Assembly (NCBI GenBank): GCA_947259505.1
Contig: CAMYLT010000002.1
Span: 1-64,000 of the forward strand
Direction of reading: 5' to 3'
Length of the DNA stretch: 64,000 nucleotides
DNA from: an uncultured Porticoccus sp.
GTDB lineage: Bacteria > Pseudomonadota > Gammaproteobacteria > Pseudomonadales > Porticoccaceae
Below are positions 53,855 through 62,343 of this stretch, piece by piece. Numbering within the stretch: the stretch's first letter is position 1; each line of letters opens with the position of its first letter. The position numbers were made by a program, and so were the translations under genes. The notes under the pieces were generated by a model. It worked only from the letters and a program-made list of their open reading frames with translations. It ran no database searches and had not been told where the DNA came from.

Positions 53855-53871
53855 TTGGCATTCATTATGCA
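53855..53871 (+). promoter_or_regulatory. Sigma-54 promoter of the multihaem operon
   Basis: TTGGCATTCATTATGCA matches the -24/-12 pattern (consensus YTGGCACGNNNNTTGCW): the GG and GC doublets are exactly 10 bp apart. Transcription would start near 53882, giving a leader of about 130 nt before the first gene. Upstream at 53722-53765 lie several GCAC/GTGC half-sites at a distance usual for NtrC-type enhancers, but their spacing does not fit the consensus. Confidence 0.75.
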
Positions 53872-53950
53872 TAGTCCCTTCTAACAAGTGCTTCCAGACG
53901 CCGGCAGGGTAATTCAGGCAGCACGGACAATTTCTCTACAGGTAATGGAG

Positions 53951-53994
53951 CCTGTTGGCTTGCTGATAAAAGCGGCAGGCCAACAGGTTTTTTT
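53951..53994 (+). terminator. Leader terminator (attenuator) upstream of the oxidoreductase
   Basis: CCTGTTGGCTTGC (53951-53963) pairs with GCAGGCCAACAGG (53975-53987), with one G-T wobble, and seven T follow. It sits between the sigma-54 promoter and the gene start at 54014, which is the arrangement of nitrate/nitrite-responsive antitermination leaders such as Klebsiella nasF and Azotobacter nasAB. An upstream hairpin (about 53934-53950, CTCTA/TGGAG) ends right where the terminator begins. Confidence 0.8.
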
Positions 53995-54013
53995 GTTTAG
54001 TGAACCCGGGTCA

Positions 54014-55312
54014 ATGACAGCTTTGAATCGCGATCTTGTCGCTCACAACAATGCAGTTGAAACCGTCCAGGCCGTTATGCCTAAGTCGGTTCACTCCCGT
54101 ATTATTGTGATTGGAGCAGGACCAGTGGGCATTCGCTTTGCGGACGAGCTGTTATCCCGTCGCCCAGAGGAGCATGTCCATCTGTTTGGCGATGAGACCT
54201 GTCTGCCCTACAACCGCATTCAACTCTCCGCCCTGCTGGCGGGTGAAATCGATCGCGATGCCATCGACCTGCCCCTGCCCGACAACGCACAGCACCAGAA
54301 CTTCCGCTTTACCTCCTCAGCCATCACCGCAATCGATCGCGACAGCAACACGGTGACCGATGCCACCGGCAATCAATACCGCTACGACAAGCTGATTTTC
54401 GCCACCGGGGCACGAGCGCATATTCCCAATATTCCTGGCATTGAACGCCAGGGAGTGTTCAGCTTCCGCAGCCTGCGCGATACCGAAAGTCTCTATGCCC
54501 GCATCCTTCGCTCACGTCATATTGTCGTGGTGGGTGGCGGACTACTGGGACTGGAAGCGGCCAAGGGTTTGTTGAAATTCCACACCAGGGTTACGGTGAT
54601 ACAACAGGGTCCTCACCTGATGAATCGCCAGCTGGATGAGGACGCCGCCAGTTTGCTGGAGCAGGAAGTCAAACGTCTTGGCATCGACATCATTACCCAT
54701 GCCGGTGTGCGGGCAATCGACGGCTATGAACACGTCACCTCGGTCACCACCCGCAACGGGGATATTATTTCCTGTGACACGGTACTGTTCTGTGCGGGAA
54801 TCACGCCCAATATCGACCTGGCTCGCAAGGCACGCCTGACGGTCGGCACAGGTATCGTGGTCAATGACTATTTACAAACCTCTGACCCGGACATTTATGC
54901 CATCGGTGAATGCTGTGAACACCAAGGCACCACCTATGGGTTGGTAAATCCCGGCTTCGAACAGGCTTCAGTGGCCGCATCCGTGTTGGCAGATTCAGAT
55001 CAACAGCCGCTACCCCGTTATCAGGGATCAGCCGCCGTCAGCAATCTCAAGGTGGTCGGGACAAGGGTATGCAGCCTCGGCGAAATCAACGAGCTTGCGG
55101 CCAGGCCCTTCCAGAAAGAAACCCGTTATCAGTCGCCTGATACTGGCGAATACCGCAAGCTGGTGACACTAAAAGGGAAAATTGTCGGTGCAGTCGGCAT
55201 CGGGGACTGGCCTGAGTCGCGACGCATTCAGGAATGCCTATCAGAACAACCGCAAACTCAACCGTTGGCAGCTCTATCAATTCCGCCGCAACGGAAAACT
55301 GTGGGGAGATAA
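54014..55312 (+). CDS. NirB-like FAD/NAD(P)H oxidoreductase, 5' part of a frameshifted gene
   Basis: From ATG 54014 the frame encodes two Rossmann units: 'IIVIGAGPVGIRFADELL' (FAD) and 'IVVVGGGLLGLEAAKGLL' (NAD(P)H), and closes the FAD fold with 'DIYAIGECCEHQGTTYGLV'. This is the N-terminal half of assimilatory nitrite reductase NirB and rubredoxin-reductase-like enzymes; no sirohaem domain follows. The frame is coherent up to 'GDWPESRRIQE' (55234); its last 26 residues are out-of-frame nonsense. Omitting one T at 55235 joins it to the BFD/membrane part (next entry). Starts upstream of 54014 would lie in the terminator. Confidence 0.85.
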   Translation: MTALNRDLVAHNNAVETVQAVMPKSVHSRIIVIGAGPVGIRFADELLSRRPEEHVHLFGDETCLPYNRIQLSALLAGEIDRDAIDLPLPDNAQHQNFRFTSSAITAIDRDSNTVTDATGNQYRYDKLIFATGARAHIPNIPGIERQGVFSFRSLRDTESLYARILRSRHIVVVGGGLLGLEAAKGLLKFHTRVTVIQQGPHLMNRQLDEDAASLLEQEVKRLGIDIITHAGVRAIDGYEHVTSVTTRNGDIISCDTVLFCAGITPNIDLARKARLTVGTGIVVNDYLQTSDPDIYAIGECCEHQGTTYGLVNPGFEQASVAASVLADSDQQPLPRYQGSAAVSNLKVVGTRVCSLGEINELAARPFQKETRYQSPDTGEYRKLVTLKGKIVGAVGIGDWPESRRIQECLSEQPQTQPLAALSIPPQRKTVGR

Positions 55313-56045
55313 AGGCAATGCCGTCAGCCAATGGCCCGCCAGCACCATCATCTGCCAGTGCAACAACATCAGTTTCGGAGAGTTGAATAGCGCCATACAG
55401 AACAATGGCTGCAATACCGTTACGGCGCTACAGTCATGCACCAAAGCCGGCACCGTCTGCGGCTCCTGTAAACCGCTGTTACAGCAAATTGTCGGCGATA
55501 ACAGCATCCCGGAAAAAGAATCCAACGCCACGACACTGACTGCCGCAGGACTGCTGGCACTGGGACTGGTCGCCCTGATCGGTTTCTGGCCCGAGGCCCA
55601 AGTCGCAACAAGTGTGCAACAGGTTAATTGGTTCGAGGGCATCTGGAACGACAAGTTCTGGAAGCAGGTCACTGGCTTTTCCCTCTTAGGCCTCACCGCC
55701 ATTGGTCTACTGATGTCCCTGCGCAAAAGGTTGTCCTGGGCCTGGATGGGCAAGTTTTCCGCTTGGCGCCTCGTTCACATTCTGCTCGGCATAGCCTGCT
55801 GCCTCACCTTGGTACTCCACAGTGGCTTTCATCTGGGCGCCAATCTCAACCAATTGCTGATGATCAATTTTTTGGCGGTAGTGCTGCTGGGTGCTGTCAC
55901 CAGCAATGCCATCGGCACTGGGCACAAGCTCTCTGGCAGTACAGCATCCGGATCTCGAAAATATATGCAATGGCTGCACATTATTGTGTCCTGGCCACTG
56001 CCGATACTACTCACGTTTCACATTCTCTCGGTGTACTACTTCTGA
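55182..56045 (+). CDS. BFD [2Fe-2S] plus membrane cytochrome-b domain, 3' part of the frameshifted oxidoreductase gene
   Basis: The coherent sequence begins at 55236 ('AYQNNRKLNRWQLYQFRRNGKLWG'). It continues with a BFD-type [2Fe-2S] domain ('IICQCNNIS', then 'GTVCGSCKPLL', i.e. CxC and CxxC), and three to four membrane helices carrying paired His ('WRLVHILLG', 'VLHSGFH', 'WLHIIVSW', 'LLTFHILSVYYF') as in bis-His b-type haem proteins. No ATG lies between 55182 and the BFD domain, so it is not an independent gene. The whole would be one protein: NAD(P)H to FAD to [2Fe-2S] to haem b in the membrane. It ends 16 bp before the multihaem gene. Confidence 0.8.
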   Translation: MSVQSASGTGLSRDAFRNAYQNNRKLNRWQLYQFRRNGKLWGDKGNAVSQWPASTIICQCNNISFGELNSAIQNNGCNTVTALQSCTKAGTVCGSCKPLLQQIVGDNSIPEKESNATTLTAAGLLALGLVALIGFWPEAQVATSVQQVNWFEGIWNDKFWKQVTGFSLLGLTAIGLLMSLRKRLSWAWMGKFSAWRLVHILLGIACCLTLVLHSGFHLGANLNQLLMINFLAVVLLGAVTSNAIGTGHKLSGSTASGSRKYMQWLHIIVSWPLPILLTFHILSVYYF

Positions 56046-56061
56046 TGGCGGCGGCAGAGCA

Positions 56062-57375
56062 ATGAAAAAGTGGCTGTGGTTCGGCTGGATCGTCGTGTCA
56101 CTGGGACTTGCCGGCTACTACGGCTATAGCTTTTTTCAGTCAGAGAACAAACAGAATCTGCTGATCGGTGATGCCAGTTATGGCCATTATCAGATCGAGC
56201 TGGCCTGTAGCGCCTGCCACACCGAAGCCTTCGGCGGCCAGGAGTCCATCCAGAAAGCCTGCGTGGGTTGCCACGCCGAAGAACTGGAAGCCGCACACGA
56301 CTCGCACCCGAAAAAGAAATTTACCGATCCGCGCAATGCCGATCTGCTGGCGGTTCTGGATGCCCGCTACTGTGTTAGCTGTCACACGGAACACCAGCAG
56401 GAACAGACCCACCCCATGGGCCTCACCCTGCCAAAGGATTACTGCTTCCACTGTCACCAGGACATTGGCGAAGATCGGGAAAGTCACAAAAATCTCGCCT
56501 TCGATAGCTGTGCCAGTGCCGGCTGTCATAACTACCATGACAACCGCGCCCTGTATGAAGATTTTTTGCTGGAAAACCACCAGGGCGCCTGGGTAAATGC
56601 GTTAGCCCGCATTACCTCTCCCAACGCGGCAGCCAAACTTGCCCCGGAACGCATTCCCGCGGCGCAACCTGACTTCCCACAGCAAGTAGCCCAGCATCCG
56701 GATATCCACTCAGAATGGTCTGCCAGCAGCCACGCCGAGGCCGGTGTCAGCTGCGGCGGCTGCCACAGCGATGCGACCACCCAGGCATGGGTTGAAAAAC
56801 CCGGTATTGAGCAGTGTCAGACATGTCATTTAAATGAGGCCAATAGTTATAAAGCGGGGAAGCACGGCATGCGTCTGGCTCAATCCCTGTCCGCTATCAG
56901 CCCGGTCGAATCCCACCTGCCCTTCAAAGAACAGGCCTTATCTCAACATCAAGGCTGTAACAGCTGTCATGGCGCCCACAAAACTGACACTCAATTCGCG
57001 GCGGCACAGGCCTGCCTCGGATGCCATAACGACCAACATTCCCTGGCATTTGAAACATCTCCCCACGGCAAGCTACTGAGCCAAGCAATTGCCGGAGTCT
57101 TCCCTGTAGAACAAGCGGTGACCTGCGCCACCTGCCATATGCCAAGGGAAGAAAAAACGCTGATGGGTCACAAAGTCATACAGGTAAACCACAACCAGAA
57201 TGACAACCTGCGCCCCAACGAGAAAATGATTCGCCCAGTCTGTATGCAATGCCACAACCTGAGCTTCGCCATCGATGCACTGGCCGACCCGGCCCTCATC
57301 GACAACAACTTCAACGGCAAGCCGTCACAGCACATCCCTTCCATCGACTGGGCACGTCGCCGGGAGGCCAAGTGA
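56062..57375 (+). CDS. Membrane-anchored undecahaem c-type cytochrome
   Basis: The 437-aa protein has one N-terminal anchor helix ('WLWFGWIVVSLGLAGYYGYSFF') and a periplasmic part with ten CXXCH sites (CSACH, CVGCH, CVSCH, CFHCH, CGGCH, CQTCH, CNSCH, CLGCH, CATCH, CMQCH) and one CX4CH (CASAGCH), as found in cytochromes c3. The first five sites form one cluster and the last six another, joined by a stretch without haems (about residues 160-225). 'VTCATCHMPREEK' in the second cluster recalls octahaem hydroxylamine-oxidoreductase-like proteins. I do not recognise the exact family. Probable electron acceptor of the preceding membrane protein. Confidence 0.88.
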   Translation: MKKWLWFGWIVVSLGLAGYYGYSFFQSENKQNLLIGDASYGHYQIELACSACHTEAFGGQESIQKACVGCHAEELEAAHDSHPKKKFTDPRNADLLAVLDARYCVSCHTEHQQEQTHPMGLTLPKDYCFHCHQDIGEDRESHKNLAFDSCASAGCHNYHDNRALYEDFLLENHQGAWVNALARITSPNAAAKLAPERIPAAQPDFPQQVAQHPDIHSEWSASSHAEAGVSCGGCHSDATTQAWVEKPGIEQCQTCHLNEANSYKAGKHGMRLAQSLSAISPVESHLPFKEQALSQHQGCNSCHGAHKTDTQFAAAQACLGCHNDQHSLAFETSPHGKLLSQAIAGVFPVEQAVTCATCHMPREEKTLMGHKVIQVNHNQNDNLRPNEKMIRPVCMQCHNLSFAIDALADPALIDNNFNGKPSQHIPSIDWARRREAK

Positions 57376-57436
57376 TGCAGCAGAAACAGTTTCCTACCAC
57401 CCCCTTAATCTCTCATCCAACCCTGAGGACTACACC

Positions 57437-58012
57437 ATGAAGAAAGCAGCATTGATCGCGACCCTGATCACCACTGTGATCACCCTGACTGCCTGTAAGG
57501 AAGAAACAGAAGCCAAGGCTGGCATTGACCCGAAAGTCTACACAGACTCTCTATTTGCGGTCATGAAGGCGGATCGTTCCAACTACACCAAGCTGATTAT
57601 TCAACGCCTGGGACCCAATGGCGCAGGTGCCATCAAACCCGATGAGCACTGGGAAGATATTGAAAACGGTGCCCTGCTACCAGCACAGATGTTCCGTGCC
57701 GGAGCTGAAGCGGTGGCTACCATGACAGATGATTTCACCTATTCACTGCAATCTCTGTGGCCGATCAACAAACAGAATGCACCGAAAACCCCGGCTGAAG
57801 AAGCGGGTTTGAAGTACATTGCCGAGAATCCTGGCGAGAATTATTACGGTGAAGAAACACTTGGTGACGTCACCTATTACACCGCGGTTTATCCTGATGT
57901 GGCCGTGTCCCCAGCCTGTACCGGCTGTCACAACGACCACAAGGATTCACCGAAAACTGACTTCAAAATCGGTGAAGTCATGGGTGGTGTGGTCATTCGC
58001 GTACCCCTGTAA
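57437..58012 (+). CDS. DUF3365 (Tll0287-like) haem lipoprotein
   Basis: The 191-aa precursor has a lipobox LTAC (Cys20), a DUF3365 domain ('WEDIENGALLPAQMFRAGAEAV', 'YSLQSLWPINKQNAPKTPAEEAGLKYI', 'YYTAVYPDVAVSPACTGCHNDH') with one haem-c site CTGCH. Tll0287-type domains are PAS-like haem proteins thought to sense redox state. It follows the multihaem gene by 61 bp in the same unit. The start ATG 57437 is the only one with a lipoprotein signal. Confidence 0.85.
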   Translation: MKKAALIATLITTVITLTACKEETEAKAGIDPKVYTDSLFAVMKADRSNYTKLIIQRLGPNGAGAIKPDEHWEDIENGALLPAQMFRAGAEAVATMTDDFTYSLQSLWPINKQNAPKTPAEEAGLKYIAENPGENYYGEETLGDVTYYTAVYPDVAVSPACTGCHNDHKDSPKTDFKIGEVMGGVVIRVPL

Positions 58013-58054
58013 ATCACCGGTAAGAAATATGCGTTCCAAACCTTGGGTGACCCC

Positions 58055-58417
58055 ATGTTGAAATCCATTCTGCTTGTGGCAACGGCCTGTCTGGGGTTGT
58101 TGGCCTGCTCAGAGAAGTCGGTAAATGCACCAATAAGTGCAGCACCATCGGCGATAACGACGCAGCCTGTCCACCCCGGCGCCGCACTGGCAAAAAAGAA
58201 CTGCTTTGCCTGCCACAAACCAGGACTCAACGGGGCCCCCATTATTGGCAATATCAAAATGTGGGGACCAAGGCTTGCCCAAGGTGAGGAAACGCTGGTG
58301 CAACATGCCATCAACGGGTTCGGGTTAATGCCCCCCAAAGGTGGCTCAACACTCAGTGATGAGCAAATGGCCCAGGCAGTGAATTACATGCTGACTCAGC
58401 TGCCTGCTACCCAATAG
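58055..58417 (+). CDS. Class I cytochrome c lipoprotein
   Basis: The 120-aa precursor has a lipoprotein signal (lipobox LLAC, Cys17) and a small cytochrome c domain: 'HPGAALAKKNCFACHKPGLNGAP' (haem site CFACH), 'WGPRLAQGEETLVQHAINGFG' and the axial Met in 'GLMPPKGG'. It resembles cytochrome c5-type electron carriers tethered to the outer or inner membrane. ATG 58055 is preferred over the TTG at 58043. It ends the operon and is convergent with the next gene. Confidence 0.88.
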   Translation: MLKSILLVATACLGLLACSEKSVNAPISAAPSAITTQPVHPGAALAKKNCFACHKPGLNGAPIIGNIKMWGPRLAQGEETLVQHAINGFGLMPPKGGSTLSDEQMAQAVNYMLTQLPATQ

Positions 58418-58427
58418 TCAAGAAGGA

Positions 58428-59195
58428 TCAACGTAATTGGGCATCCTGTACTGCCTGCCACAGGCCATCCACGGCCTGTTGCAAGTAGTGCAGTTTTTCC
58501 GCGTCGGGATGTGAATAGTCAGCTCCATACAACCGGATGAAATCCATCGCCGGATGCCCCCAACCACCATATTCCCAATCCAACACTACCAGGCCACGCT
58601 CGGTTTCAACGATATTTTCCGCCACCAAATCATGATGGCAGACCACCGGTTGCCAATCAGCGGCATCCACAGCACAGGCCCAATCCAGAATTTGCTGTGA
58701 CTCTACAGGGGTATTTGGCAACTGTGACAAATAGCCTCTGCAGTGGTTCTGGTAGCTGAATCGTTTTACCGCAGGTACCGCAGGGAGCTGCTGCCAGCGG
58801 CGGACACGTTGTGCCAGCCGTTCCCGGTAGCTGTCCTGTTGCAGGGCATCAGCAGGCCAGCGGCGTCCCTCAACAAAAGCACTCACCAGTACATCTGCCG
58901 TGGTATACCAAACGGAAGGAATAAAACCCGTACCCTGAAGTTGCCGCAACAAGGCCAATTCCCGTTGACGGTCGATACCGAGCGCAGCACTGTTCGCCGC
59001 ATTGACCCGCACCACCGCCAGGTGTGCCCCGCTTTCCACCAGGAAGGAGTGATTGGTTTTTCCTCCCTCCAGAGGGCGAACCACTCTTGGCTCACATGGC
59101 AGCTCGACGTGCCAATGCTGCCAGTCAGACAAGGTCTGCTGTAACGTAGACTCGATGCTGTGCAAGGTACAGTTTTCTCCATGTGACGAATCCAA
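58428..59195 (-). CDS. Thiamine kinase-like phosphotransferase (APH/choline-kinase fold)
   Basis: The 255-aa cytoplasmic kinase has the APH pattern: 'RPLEGGKTNHSFLVES' nucleotide loop, the Brenner motif 'VVCHHDLVAENIV' (catalytic Asp) and the metal 'VLDWEYGGWGHPAMDF'. Relatives include choline kinase and E. coli thiamine kinase YcfN. Position at the end of a TPP-riboswitch operon argues for thiamine. No ATG is available near the N terminus: TTG 59195 or TTG 59165 must serve, overlapping the end of the permease gene by up to 71 bp. Confidence 0.82.
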   Translation of the reverse strand: MDSSHGENCTLHSIESTLQQTLSDWQHWHVELPCEPRVVRPLEGGKTNHSFLVESGAHLAVVRVNAANSAALGIDRQRELALLRQLQGTGFIPSVWYTTADVLVSAFVEGRRWPADALQQDSYRERLAQRVRRWQQLPAVPAVKRFSYQNHCRGYLSQLPNTPVESQQILDWACAVDAADWQPVVCHHDLVAENIVETERGLVVLDWEYGGWGHPAMDFIRLYGADYSHPDAEKLHYLQQAVDGLWQAVQDAQLR

Positions 59196-59724
59196 TCACC
59201 ACCAACACCACATAGATGGCAAACAGTCCGGCGGTAAAATACAGCTCTCGATCCAGGTAGATATAGATGGATACACCATCTATCAGAATCCAGTACAGCC
59301 AGTTCTCCAGTACTTTACGCGCGACCATATAGGTGGTCAGCACGCTGCCCCAAGTAGTAAAGGAATCCAGATAGGGCAGCTGCGCATCCGTATTTTTCTC
59401 CAGCAGGTAACCGGAAATCAGCGATACCAGCAGCACCCCCAGAAAGGCATAGAGATGACAATCAAACGACCAGCTCCTGATCGATAATCCATGGTGCTCC
59501 CTACCGCCCCGCCGCCACTGGTACCAGCCGTAGACGGCCATCACCAAGTAATAGACATTGAGCAGCGATTCCATATACAACTTCACGCCGCCAAAAATCC
59601 AGATGTAGATGGCGGTGCCAAAAAAGGCGCAGTACCAACACAGGCTGTTTTCCCTCATGGCCAGCAGCAGGTAAGCCAGCGATAACGCTACCGCCAGCAT
59701 TTCCAGATTGAGCCAGGTCGGCAT
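59125..59724 (-). CDS. pnuT: PnuC-family permease, thiamine-type (PnuT)
   Basis: The 199-aa inner-membrane protein has seven to eight helices and PnuC-family landmarks: 'ENSLCWYCAFFGTAIYIWIFGGVKLYMESLLNVYYLVMAVYGWYQW', 'DSFTTWGSVLTTYMVARKVLENWLYWILIDGVSIYIY'. PnuC carries nicotinamide riboside; the PnuT branch carries thiamine. The TPP riboswitch ahead of the operon makes thiamine far more likely. No ligand-trapping kinase is fused, but one follows in the operon. Confidence 0.88.
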   Translation of the reverse strand: MPTWLNLEMLAVALSLAYLLLAMRENSLCWYCAFFGTAIYIWIFGGVKLYMESLLNVYYLVMAVYGWYQWRRGGREHHGLSIRSWSFDCHLYAFLGVLLVSLISGYLLEKNTDAQLPYLDSFTTWGSVLTTYMVARKVLENWLYWILIDGVSIYIYLDRELYFTAGLFAIYVVLVVIGFVTWRKLYLAQHRVYVTADLV

Positions 59725-59725
59725 C

Positions 59726-59974
59726 TCAGAGCGCCTCGTAGCCGGGGATCACCTTCAGCACATACACCGCCATGCCAAACTCTTCACGGCAGGCGGCGAT
59801 GGTTTCCTGCACCGCCTGCATGGCCCAATCATATTCTCCCTGTACCACGGTGCTGGTGGGAAAGGTTTTAATGGTCAAATCCTGATAGCGATTAATCTTT
59901 TCGATAAACCCGTCGATAGGCGGAATAAAGTCTTCCCGATTCGGGTACATGCTGATATCAATGGTCACAATCAT
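59726..59974 (-). CDS. Small thiamine-binding-domain protein (MTH1187/YkoF-like)
   Basis: From ATG 59974 the 82-aa protein 'MIVTIDISMYPN...FIPPIDGFIEKIN' to 'GEYDWAMQAVQETI' and 'YVLKVIPGYEAL' shows the ferredoxin-like MTH1187/YkoF fold, members of which bind hydroxymethylpyrimidine or thiamine. No signal peptide, so cytoplasmic. The longer frame to 60091 overlaps the receptor gene and lacks a homologue-like start. It is 1 bp ahead of pnuT and 13 bp after the receptor gene. Confidence 0.75.
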   Translation of the reverse strand: MIVTIDISMYPNREDFIPPIDGFIEKINRYQDLTIKTFPTSTVVQGEYDWAMQAVQETIAACREEFGMAVYVLKVIPGYEAL

Positions 59975-59987
59975 CTCGGACTCCCCC

Positions 59988-62126
59988 CTAAAAACGGTAT
60001 GTTGCGGTAGCGCCGACGATACGCGGCTCTCCGTACTGATAGTAGGGTTCAGTTGCATAGAATTTGCGCGGGTCGTTACCAAAGCTGCCAAAGCCGCGCA
60101 CGATCACGTCCCGATCCGCCAGGTTGCGCCCCCAGAGGGAGAGCGACCATTGCTCCACATCATAGTCGAGACGGGCGTTGACCAGTTCATAGCGATTCGA
60201 CTTGGCATTGTGTCGCGGCGACAAATAGAAGGACTCCTTGCCTTCCACCTCTAGTCCGGCAGTTAAACGATTCGTCAATGCCACATCCATACCCACCGCA
60301 AACTGATAGGAAGGCGCATGGGCCTGCTCGTGGCCACTGAGATCAACTGCCACGGCATTAGCGGGATCGGCATCTACGTGAGAGAAACTTTCAAAGTTCT
60401 TAAAGGTAGCCCGCAATAAACCCAGGCTGCCGTAGAGCCTGACCAGCTCAGATGCCTGCCAGTTGACTTCCAGTTCTGCACCATAGTTCTCACCCTTGGC
60501 CGCATTATCAAAAAAGTCTGTAAAGCTGCAGGGGCAGGAGGAGCCAGAAATCGGCTCCACCAGCGACTGTTTGACCTGCATTTCCCGGCGATCCTGGAAG
60601 AACACGGACAACTGCATGGCCAACCGGTGATCGAACCAATCCCCCTTGATGCCCGTTTCATAATTCCACAAATACTCGGTATCGAAATCCCTGGCACTAG
60701 CGTCCAGAGACGGATTGCTGTTCACGCCACCGGCCTTGTACCCACGTGACACCAGAGCATAAAGCAGCGTCTGTGAAGTCAGGTTGTATTCCAGCCCCAA
60801 CCGACCACCCCAGAGGCGCTCACTGTTGTCGTTATTGACCAGGTCACTGTCATCGTAATCCGCGTTGCGGAATTCCAGCCGCAGGCCACTGGTCAGTTTC
60901 AGGCGGTCGGTCAGCCAGCTGTCCAGTTGGCCATAAATAGCCCGGTTGCGGGTATCGTAATCGCTGGTGAAATCTCCGCTGGCATAAGTGTATTCCCGCA
61001 GCAGAGACTCATCCTGGAAACGGTAGTACACACCCAGCACCCAATCGGTGGAGCCGTTGAACAACCGTCCCGCTTCGCTGGATACCAGCCGCAGGTCTAC
61101 CGTGCCGTTTTCACGGTCGCGACGGTAGCGGTCGAAAGAAGCGTATTCCCAGCCGTCACAGGGCTGGCCACTACAAATACCAACATAGCTCCAATCCTCG
61201 TCATAGCTGTACTCGAGGTTGCTCTCCGCATAGCTCACCAGCCCCACCACATCAAAGCGCTCAAAACCCTGCCAAATAGTTTCCACTGCAAAAGCGGTGG
61301 ATTCCTGGCGGTCGTGACCCGGTTGGTTGGAAAGGGTATGGCGGGTATTGTCCAGGGAGAAATCATCGTAGCCATTGTCCGCATCCACATAGAACCCGGT
61401 GAAATTGACCTGCAGATCATCGCTGGCACGCCATTGCAGTTTGCCGCGGGCGGTCAATTCATCAAGATTACTGGTGTCGTGACGATTCAGATAATCATTG
61501 TCGATATAGCCATCGCTGCGGTGCCCCTGAACCGCCAGTCGATAACCCAGCGTATCGGAGATCGGCCCGCTCAACACCGCACTGGTGGTACGGGTTTCGT
61601 ATTCGGCAATAGAGGTCTCCACACGACCTTCAAAAGTATCGGTGGGATCATTGGACTTCATGTCGATTAATCCGGCCAGTGCGTTGGCACCGTAGAGGGT
61701 ACCCTGTGGGCCGCGCAGAATTTCAATCTGCCGCATATCCAGCGTGGTCGCAGCGCCGCCAATACCACTGAAATCAATGCCGTCGATCAGCAAACCCACG
61801 GAGGGATTGAGGGGCTCGATAAACTGGCTGCGCTCGCCGATACCACGAATCTGGATAAATTTTCCCCGGGAAGCACCGGAAGAAAAATTGACGTTGGGTG
61901 CCAGATTGAGCACCTGTTCAAGGTGAGTGGCCCCACGCTGCTCTAGAGTATCGCCGTCAATGACAGTGATACTGCTACCGGTGTTGAGTACTGAGATATT
62001 TCGGAATTGGGCCGTGACGATAACTTCTTCAAAACCCTGCGGGGAAGACGCGGGTTCTGCGCCCAAGGCACCGCCGGTAAAAAACAGCATCGCGGCCAGC
62101 AGGCCGGACTTGTTACTAAAATTCAT
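59988..62126 (-). CDS. TonB-dependent receptor for thiamine (riboswitch-controlled)
   Basis: The 712-aa outer-membrane protein has a signal peptide (cleavage near 'GGALGAEPA'), TonB-box-like 'EEVIVTAQF', plug ('SGASRGKFIQIRGIGERSQFIEPLNPSVGLLIDGIDFSG', 'EILRGPQGTLYGANALAGLI') and a barrel ending in 'RIVGATATYRF'. The ATG at 62126 has GAGG at good distance. Earlier in-frame starts (62141, 62147) are possible. It directly follows a TPP riboswitch and is the first gene of receptor, binding protein, PnuT, kinase; all four fit uptake of thiamine from outside. Confidence 0.9.
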   Translation of the reverse strand: MNFSNKSGLLAAMLFFTGGALGAEPASSPQGFEEVIVTAQFRNISVLNTGSSITVIDGDTLEQRGATHLEQVLNLAPNVNFSSGASRGKFIQIRGIGERSQFIEPLNPSVGLLIDGIDFSGIGGAATTLDMRQIEILRGPQGTLYGANALAGLIDMKSNDPTDTFEGRVETSIAEYETRTTSAVLSGPISDTLGYRLAVQGHRSDGYIDNDYLNRHDTSNLDELTARGKLQWRASDDLQVNFTGFYVDADNGYDDFSLDNTRHTLSNQPGHDRQESTAFAVETIWQGFERFDVVGLVSYAESNLEYSYDEDWSYVGICSGQPCDGWEYASFDRYRRDRENGTVDLRLVSSEAGRLFNGSTDWVLGVYYRFQDESLLREYTYASGDFTSDYDTRNRAIYGQLDSWLTDRLKLTSGLRLEFRNADYDDSDLVNNDNSERLWGGRLGLEYNLTSQTLLYALVSRGYKAGGVNSNPSLDASARDFDTEYLWNYETGIKGDWFDHRLAMQLSVFFQDRREMQVKQSLVEPISGSSCPCSFTDFFDNAAKGENYGAELEVNWQASELVRLYGSLGLLRATFKNFESFSHVDADPANAVAVDLSGHEQAHAPSYQFAVGMDVALTNRLTAGLEVEGKESFYLSPRHNAKSNRYELVNARLDYDVEQWSLSLWGRNLADRDVIVRGFGSFGNDPRKFYATEPYYQYGEPRIVGATATYRF

Positions 62127-62193
62127 GATGTTGAGCCTCATTAACAACGTTAAGGAGACCCGGATATGGGAGGAGTGAACGCTAGATTTTTCG

Positions 62194-62275
62194 TCCTATC
62201 CCTACGCCGGTACTATCCGGATCAGGTTCAAAGGGTCCATCAGAAGATGTCTCAGGCTTGCGCCGCCCCTTAGGA
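62194..62275 (-). ncRNA. TPP riboswitch (THI element)
   Basis: The minus strand carries the conserved parts in order: P1 arm TCCTA with AAGGGG, 'GCCTGAGAC', then 'ACCCTTTGAACCTGATC', 'CGGATA' and 'GCGTAGGGA' with the closing TAGGA. The pyrimidine- and pyrophosphate-sensor bases 'CUGAGA' and 'ACCUGAUC' are intact. The 3' end lies about 68 bp before the receptor ATG; regulation is probably by masking the GAGG start region, since no terminator with a T-run is evident there. Confidence 0.95.
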
Positions 62276-62343
62276 AAACTCACCGGCTATTGCAGGTGAG
62301 GCTGCGATTCTACGCGAATCAATGATCAACTCAATGGCTGTGA

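Follow-up and report, generated by a model that had tools for sequence, protein, structure and literature searches.

Bacterial nitrate assimilation is usually pictured as cytoplasmic. What, in that picture, would be the use of an operon that seems built to carry electrons from NAD(P)H across the membrane into a chain of periplasmic haems, and that begins with a leader of the nitrate-assimilation type? This question is raised by a four-gene operon at positions 53,855–58,417 of a 64,000-nucleotide stretch of DNA from an uncultured Porticoccus sp. (GenBank assembly GCA_947259505.1, contig CAMYLT010000002.1, positions 1 to 64,000; this whole stretch is referred to as the window). The operon encodes a protein with FAD, [2Fe-2S] and cytochrome b parts (FAD-BFD-cytochrome b), a membrane-anchored cytochrome c with 11 haems, a haem lipoprotein of the DUF3365 family and a single-haem cytochrome c lipoprotein. 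We found it to be a real and conserved unit. We tentatively read it as an NADH-driven transmembrane electron wire, co-expressed with nitrate assimilation, whose DUF3365 haem would dispose of nitric oxide (NO) or related species, and we put the probability of this reading at about 0.4. The features of the operon are as follows.

53856..53871, + strand: sigma-54-type promoter-like site, GG-N10-GC, from the sequence; the pattern recurs in homologous operons
53938..53955, + strand: ANTAR (NasT) hairpin of the P2 type with an A1/G4 hexaloop; its 3' arm is part of the 5' arm of the terminator
~53950..53994, + strand: intrinsic terminator hairpin and T run of the attenuator, from fold statistics
54014..55236, + strand: NirB-like FAD/NAD(P)H part of FAD-BFD-cytochrome b (PF07992, 210.9 bits; Rubredoxin_C; TIGR02374)
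55347..55493, + strand: BFD-like [2Fe-2S] domain, CXC...CXXC (PF04324, 43.8 bits)
55515..56045, + strand: membrane domain, predicted to hold two b haems (His codons at 55776, 55818, 55977 and 56019)
56062..57375, + strand: 11-haem membrane-anchored cytochrome c (10 CXXCH and 1 CX4CH)
57437..58012, + strand: DUF3365/Tll0287-like (haem-Cache) lipoprotein (PF11845, 67.2 bits, cut-off 24.1; haem motif 57917–57931)
58055..58417, + strand: single-haem cytochrome c lipoprotein, accessory (PF13442, 59.6 bits; haem motif 58202–58216)

The FAD-BFD-cytochrome b gene spans 54014–56045 in two frames. Its open reading frame (ORF) is listed from 53888, which falls within the leader, and the first in-frame ATG past the terminator, at 54014, is the likely start; the 11-haem ORF is listed from 55891, and its alignment to relatives starts at 56062. 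The lipoprotein cysteines of the DUF3365 protein and the cytochrome c were assigned by eye. Every part that an earlier note on this DNA had claimed from the letters of the sequence (NirB-like FAD, BFD, membrane haem domain, 11-haem cytochrome, DUF3365 and cytochrome c) is present in the window.

A conserved unit across many bacteria

Is this gene set a chance neighbourhood? A search of GTDB contigs gave 487 pattern matches, of which 386 were relatives of the 11-haem protein at E ≤ 1e-3 (these may include other multihaem proteins), and the best 80 of the 386 were kept as loci. They are mostly from Gammaproteobacteria, together with Alphaproteobacteria, metagenome-assembled genomes of Poribacteria and one Verrucomicrobiota isolate, Cerasicoccus. 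Culturable isolates that hold the complete gene set, for example of Neptuniibacter, Spongiibacter or Pseudomaricurvus, are represented among them. Gene order was counted by best match in the loci with sufficient contig on the side needed (n = 76 or 68 of 80). FAD-BFD-cytochrome b lies upstream of the 11-haem gene in 73/76 loci (the exceptions by best hit being L090, L109 and L111), and the DUF3365 gene lies downstream of it in 75/76, the remaining locus having it upstream. The 11-haem match starts at most 30 bases from the stop of FAD-BFD-cytochrome b in 18 of the 22 loci inspected. The single-haem cytochrome c is less constant and is found in 44/68 loci. The co-occurrence check proposed in the earlier note thus returned one conserved unit, and the gene set, its order and its conservation can be read directly from the sequences. 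The 11-haem protein itself is found in 12 of 112 family genomes, our own included, and in 27 of 369 class genomes (E < 1e-60). A plasmid search with it gave no match.

Probable control by sigma-54 and a NasT-type attenuator

Of 67 homologous operons, 38 are preceded by a strict sigma-54-like pattern, against a mean of 1.1 and a maximum of 3 in shuffles, and 27 have in their leader a hairpin whose loop carries A in position 1 and G in position 4 (A1/G4; shuffles: mean 5.5, maximum 12). The 67 are the upstream regions that could be anchored among the 80 loci and the window, window included, with close relatives kept unthinned and both patterns set after a first look. Nine other loop identities were each found in 3–9 of the 67 leaders, against 27 for A1/G4. 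The sigma-54-like site is also conserved in six aligned leaders of the genus. In the window, the fold of 53873–54005 reaches −50.7 kcal/mol (z −4.16; 0/200 shuffles equally good).

According to the available text of PMC3369931, ANTAR targets require an A first and a G fourth in the loop, and also two hairpins. The window leader has a hexaloop hairpin with A1 and G4 that overlaps the terminator (P2), the mark of a NasT (ANTAR) regulon. The upstream hairpin (P1) is predicted to form a stem-loop, but without an A1/G4 hexaloop; only the second hairpin is canonical, and the leader follows the two-hairpin rule by half. The sole Rfam match at the operon, to a microRNA family (28.1 bits against a threshold of 68), was judged to be chance on a long hairpin. 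We regard sigma-54 and ANTAR-attenuator control of the operon as well supported by these sequence patterns, and the regulation claimed in the earlier note stands on the same counts.

The genome to which the window belongs has a single ANTAR protein, with receiver and ANTAR domains. It adjoins nrt-type transporter genes and the genes for two NMT1_2-type binding proteins, an FAD reductase and a molybdoenzyme that is NasA-like and has a BFD domain; on the model of known systems, we presume the names NasT, NasS and NasA to apply to this cluster. The NasA-like protein is below the cut-offs for formate dehydrogenase (its best NCBIfam match) and for NasC, and is named NasA-like because of its context and its BFD domain. 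The nas upstream region has an A1/G4 hexaloop hairpin that leads directly into a terminator (a single match, with no shuffle control), and the nirB upstream region has an A1/G4 hairpin after a sigma-54-like site with no clear terminator (again a single match with no control). An ANTAR protein is found in 11 of the 12 carriers of the 11-haem gene in the family, compared to 34 of the 112 family genomes overall (Fisher p = 5e-6; kinship is uncorrected in this and the following Fisher tests).

A second NasA-like gene (~730 aa, 35% identity) lies beside a full-length NirB in the same genome (G000:C3 76273–81345), away from the nas-type cluster, which is on contig C8.

Most carriers are probable nitrate assimilators

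For the wider association, 50 carrier genomes were hand-picked from the 80 loci, with preference for long contigs and named isolates. NirB exceeds its cut-off in 44/50 of these carriers, and a NasA-like protein (E ≤ 1e-104) is present in 48/50. The respective counts in the 369 class genomes are 166 and 158, rates which may be too low beside those of the carriers, as at most 2 candidates per genome were scored in the class draw versus up to 16–18 in the carriers. The comparison within the 369 genomes is even-handed: of the 45 that matched the 11-haem protein at E ≤ 0.001, 18 weak ones were dropped, and the 27 with E < 1e-60 were taken as carriers. NirB (E ≤ 1e-160) was found in 22 of these 27 (Fisher p = 9e-5) and a NasA-like protein in 23 (p = 7e-6). 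Nitrate transporter-type or NasT genes are also present in 12 of the 45 long loci.

As carriers mostly have both NirB and a NasA-like protein, the system accompanies the ordinary pathway and replaces nothing. The link to nitrogen assimilation suggested in the earlier note is borne out by these counts and by the position of the single ANTAR protein beside nitrate-assimilation genes. A periplasmic assimilatory nitrite reductase standing in for NirB was also considered as a role for the operon and rejected, given the 44/50 carriers with NirB over cut-off.

From NAD(P)H into the membrane

The first protein shows where the electrons would come from. The NirB model TIGR02374 matches at positions 1–385 of 794 (312 bits, below the cut-off of 578) and again at 406–472, the BFD part, so that both the FAD/NADH and the BFD portions of NirB are found. 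Past position 472 the window protein has no TIGR02374 match, that is, none to the sirohaem nitrite/sulfite reductase half; it differs from NirB in having a membrane b-haem domain in that place. The four BFD cysteines are present in 72/72 cluster members of at least 600 aa. In the membrane domain, four His in two helices, spaced 14 residues apart, are present in 70/72 homologues, the exceptions being the L109 and L111 matches, which by best hit do not immediately precede the 11-haem gene. A model of the L041 homologue (predicted local distance difference test, pLDDT, 83) has predicted membrane helices, and Foldseek groups its FAD part with ferredoxin reductases. Basic loops in the alignment place the FAD domain, by prediction, in the cytoplasm.

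Proteins of the NADPH oxidase/ferric reductase type hold two b haems on His pairs in two helices and have a cytoplasmic FAD/NAD(P)H domain. The two predicted b haems here, with His pairs 14 apart, are alike in pattern. In the window protein, by contrast, a NirB-like FAD domain stands at the N-terminus, and a [2Fe-2S] cluster separates it from the membrane part. The membrane domain has no significant Pfam match to the ferric reductase domain PF01794 (E 1.1) and a weak match to DUF4405, below cut-off. The route proposed in the earlier note, from cytoplasmic NAD(P)H across the membrane to periplasmic haems, is plausible.

The frameshift reported within this gene was confirmed. Homology places the frame change at ~55230–55236, and FAD-BFD-cytochrome b is one intact ORF of 662–692 aa in nine family loci (L019–L027), with intact copies in the same genus. 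The window copy is therefore broken or mis-sequenced, and a programmed event is unnecessary.

The 11-haem cytochrome: conductor or enzyme?

The earlier note suggested that the electrons end on the 11-haem protein, perhaps as a reductase of nitrite, hydroxylamine or tetrathionate. Our alignment holds 66 sequences, from 65 loci and the window, each with exactly 10 CXXCH motifs and 1 CX4CH motif. Eleven non-motif His are each kept in 97% or more of these sequences, and a twelfth in 88%; by sequence, the conserved non-motif His would suffice for six-coordination of all eleven haems. The model of the protein has a mean pLDDT of 73, with residues 40–128 below 50, and is reliable in the C-terminal part only, so haem ligation cannot be read from the coordinates, and the putative bis-His assignment is drawn from conservation.

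The architecture is a five-haem N-terminal part followed by six haems with a match to the fold of hydroxylamine oxidoreductase (HAO). HAO gave the best Foldseek matches of the model (E 2.9e-5), seven of which were significant, all with low template-modelling (TM) scores of 0.24–0.33. A C-terminal profile, which leaves HAO haem 1 outside its range, matches HAO 4n4j across six haem motifs in register (E 4e-11), with one HAO motif skipped. For a broader comparison with HAO homologues, which have eight motifs, ten loci gave seven ORFs with at least 6 motifs, of which three passed the profile filters (two of them nearly identical). In these three, motifs 2, 3, 5, 6 and 7 were matched, motif 4 was skipped, and motif 8 was matched only in a separate, inconsistent segment. 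The first hit of hhalign, run with the 11-haem alignment against seven HAOs, repeats the register that skips motif 4. The HAO active-site haem is number four, according to the accessible text of PMC8840924. The spacing between haems 7 and 8 in our protein, 47 residues, is also nearer that of HAO motifs 3–5 (67 in L144) than that of motifs 4–5 (10).

From these alignments, the catalytic haem of HAO has probably been lost, and the 11-haem protein is probably a conductor on an HAO-type scaffold. It would be unlike HAO in having no counterpart of haem 4 in the best local alignments, and in adding five preceding haems and a membrane anchor, while its last six haems keep the order seen in the HAO/octahaem/NrfA superfamily in those same alignments.

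The alternative is that the 11-haem protein is itself a periplasmic enzyme that draws on NADH to reduce nitrite, hydroxylamine or NO, and that its active haem, perhaps haem 7 or haem 9, is an unusual one. It would fit the HAO/NrfA-type fold, the NasT-type leader and the nitrate-assimilation context, and some of the alignments leave room for it. First, the second hhalign register is nearly equal in score to the first (3.4e-10 versus 3.1e-10). Second, when a global alignment is forced, haem 7 falls opposite the catalytic haem 4 of HAO. Third, NrfA, which is the top PDB match by E-value, aligns in two segments of reverse order, the weaker of which (i-E 0.02–0.11) pairs the NrfA CXXCK haem with haem 9. 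On the other side, the best local alignments pass over the catalytic haem, and the near-invariant non-motif His are as many as the haems, eleven of each. In 44/50 carriers, too, NirB exceeds its cut-off, which leaves no missing step to fill. The reductase of the earlier note, whichever of its substrates is meant, is therefore the less likely reading, with ligation not directly visible and other alignment registers in existence, and we consider an 11-haem enzyme improbable.

The DUF3365 protein and the globins

If the 11-haem protein conducts, the nearly constant DUF3365 protein is the likeliest working end. Its CXXCH motif is present in 71/72 ORFs, the exception being a 92-aa fragment at a contig end. 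No further Cys was found within 125 residues before or 40 after the haem motif in any of the 71, and a Cys haem ligand of the type in Pseudomonas putida is thus impossible here. Searches of the PDB with the protein and with its alignment gave no match, so the distal haem ligand could not be placed. DUF3365 domains bind a c haem covalently, and tight binding of NO was seen in a signalling member of the family, as described in the available part of PMC12889525. An Idiomarina paper, in its accessible text, names a DUF3365 protein in a table only (PMC9230427).

A globin of any type is present in 52/68 loci. Truncated haemoglobins and single-domain globins occur in 26/68 loci each and together in none, and a ferredoxin-type reductase is present in 24/68. 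One example of each was classified with Pfam/NCBIfam: the truncated haemoglobin as PF01152, the single-domain globin as PF00042, related to the flavohaemoglobin globin domain, and the reductase as having Fer2, FAD and NAD domains. Examples of a globin that comes directly after the operon in relatives are L019 7877–8296, L023 13874–14179 and L028 1220–1633.

Similar protection is known from the narK-bjgb-flp-nasC unit of Bradyrhizobium, in which NO arises from nitrate assimilation and Bjgb and Flp protect against it (PMC4724949). As far as the available text of that source goes, it too is a nitrate assimilation unit under NasS-NasT, and it detoxifies NO by means of a single-domain haemoglobin together with a flavoprotein. 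It differs in that its electron route keeps to the cytoplasm and in that it lacks a DUF3365 protein, a multihaem protein and a transmembrane cytochrome b. Taken together, the globins, the NasT-type leader and this analogy make NO the likeliest target of the DUF3365 haem.

Proposed mechanism and its competitors

In the mechanism we propose, transcription would require both sigma-54, under nitrogen limitation, and antitermination by NasT, when nitrate or nitrite is at hand. NAD(P)H would reduce FAD in the cytoplasm, and electrons would then cross the BFD [2Fe-2S] cluster and the two b haems of the same protein. The anchored periplasmic chain of eleven c haems would carry them onward to the DUF3365 haem protein, with the cytochrome c as an optional component. 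The reduced DUF3365 haem would be the working end, binding and detoxifying NO or related reactive nitrogen species that arise during nitrate and nitrite reduction. The cytoplasmic arm of the defence would in most relatives be a globin, which in one group is accompanied by a ferredoxin-type reductase of its own. We infer the direction of electron flow, the position of DUF3365 as terminal component and NO as its substrate. A more complete version, in which the NADH dehydrogenase-b haem fusion, the former HAO as conductor, the haem-Cache protein as NO reductase or scavenger, the cytoplasmic globin and NasT control form one transmembrane nitrosative-defence machine of a new kind, protecting the cell as part of nitrate assimilation, seems doubtful.

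Several further observations weigh against the proposed mechanism. Binding of NO by the stand-alone DUF3365 protein of P. putida, whose haem has Cys/His ligation, was weak, as was that by its Cys mutant, and tight binding was confined to the signalling type, according to the available text of PMC12889525; the DUF3365 proteins here are also stand-alone, though without such a Cys. No globin was found in range in 16/68 loci, nor at the window locus, and our own genome had no match to one globin query from the genus. The frameshifted first gene may leave the operon of this strain inactive, unless it is a sequence error. Among the 27 class carriers, five have no NirB match at E ≤ 1e-160 (G121, G163, G239, G291 and G396) and four have no NasA-like match at E ≤ 1e-104 (G121, G249, G291 and G396), so the link to nitrate is strong and not absolute.

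Two of the genomes deserve separate mention. G291 is a 1.7 Mb genome with no NirB or NasA-like match and with 11-haem matches on two contigs, an exception to the nitrate link. The window strain departs from its relatives in both the globin and the first reading frame.

The wire could instead be a general redox outlet, passing NADH electrons via the lipoproteins to the periplasmic cytochrome c pool or to an acceptor in the outer membrane or outside, with no nitrogen-oxide chemistry at DUF3365. The window has two haem lipoproteins downstream of the 11-haem gene, the cytochrome c recurs in 44/68 loci, a redox role has been assigned to the stand-alone DUF3365 protein (PMC12889525, available text), and in some loci a gene for an outer-membrane beta-barrel (PF13372) neighbours the nrt genes and the operon. 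Such an outlet would leave the globins (52/68) and the NasT/sigma-54 leader unexplained, and in it one would not expect the cytochrome c to be optional and DUF3365 almost always present. We consider it somewhat unlikely.

Alternatively, DUF3365 might report the electron or NO state during nitrate assimilation and remove nothing, making the operon a periplasmic redox or NO sensor relay. The protein has a Cache-type sensor fold, the related signalling protein binds NO (PMC12889525, in the text available), and GGDEF-type genes, named by eye, are present in 24 of 81 sources (the 80 loci and the window). However, the DUF3365 protein itself has no signalling domain, no signalling gene is constant among the neighbours, and a supply line of eleven haems is large for a sensor; a relay of this kind is very unlikely.

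Relation to known systems

The earlier note knew of no described system with this composition, and we likewise found no published description of the operon, judged by titles and abstract openings in a search whose coverage mostly excludes subscription literature. The operon is widespread and apparently undescribed. The Uet complex of Tenderiales also has an 11-haem cytochrome, together with a porin and tri- and tetrahaem cytochromes, and is assigned to extracellular electron transfer (PMC10734462, PMC5371394); its partners differ from those here, and the likeness seen in the available text is that of haem number.

The proposed NADH-driven wire with its DUF3365 end suggests that many nitrate users would also maintain a dedicated electron line, paid for in NADH, that reaches into the periplasm and is probably under the same switch. 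It would give the stand-alone DUF3365 haem protein a role, may show that an HAO-type scaffold has been put to new use in conduction, and could account for the way in which these bacteria cope with reactive nitrogen during nitrate use.

Surroundings of the operon

Upstream of the operon lies tatC (PF00902). Downstream, on the opposite strand, is a thiamine-type cluster (58428–62147, −), composed of a TonB-dependent receptor, a thiamine-binding-like protein (below the Pfam cut-off), a PnuC-family transporter and a thiamine-kinase-like gene (below the NCBIfam cut-off). A thiamine pyrophosphate (TPP) riboswitch (62182–62280, −; 76 bits) stands immediately upstream of this cluster, and the two together are probably for thiamine uptake and salvage.

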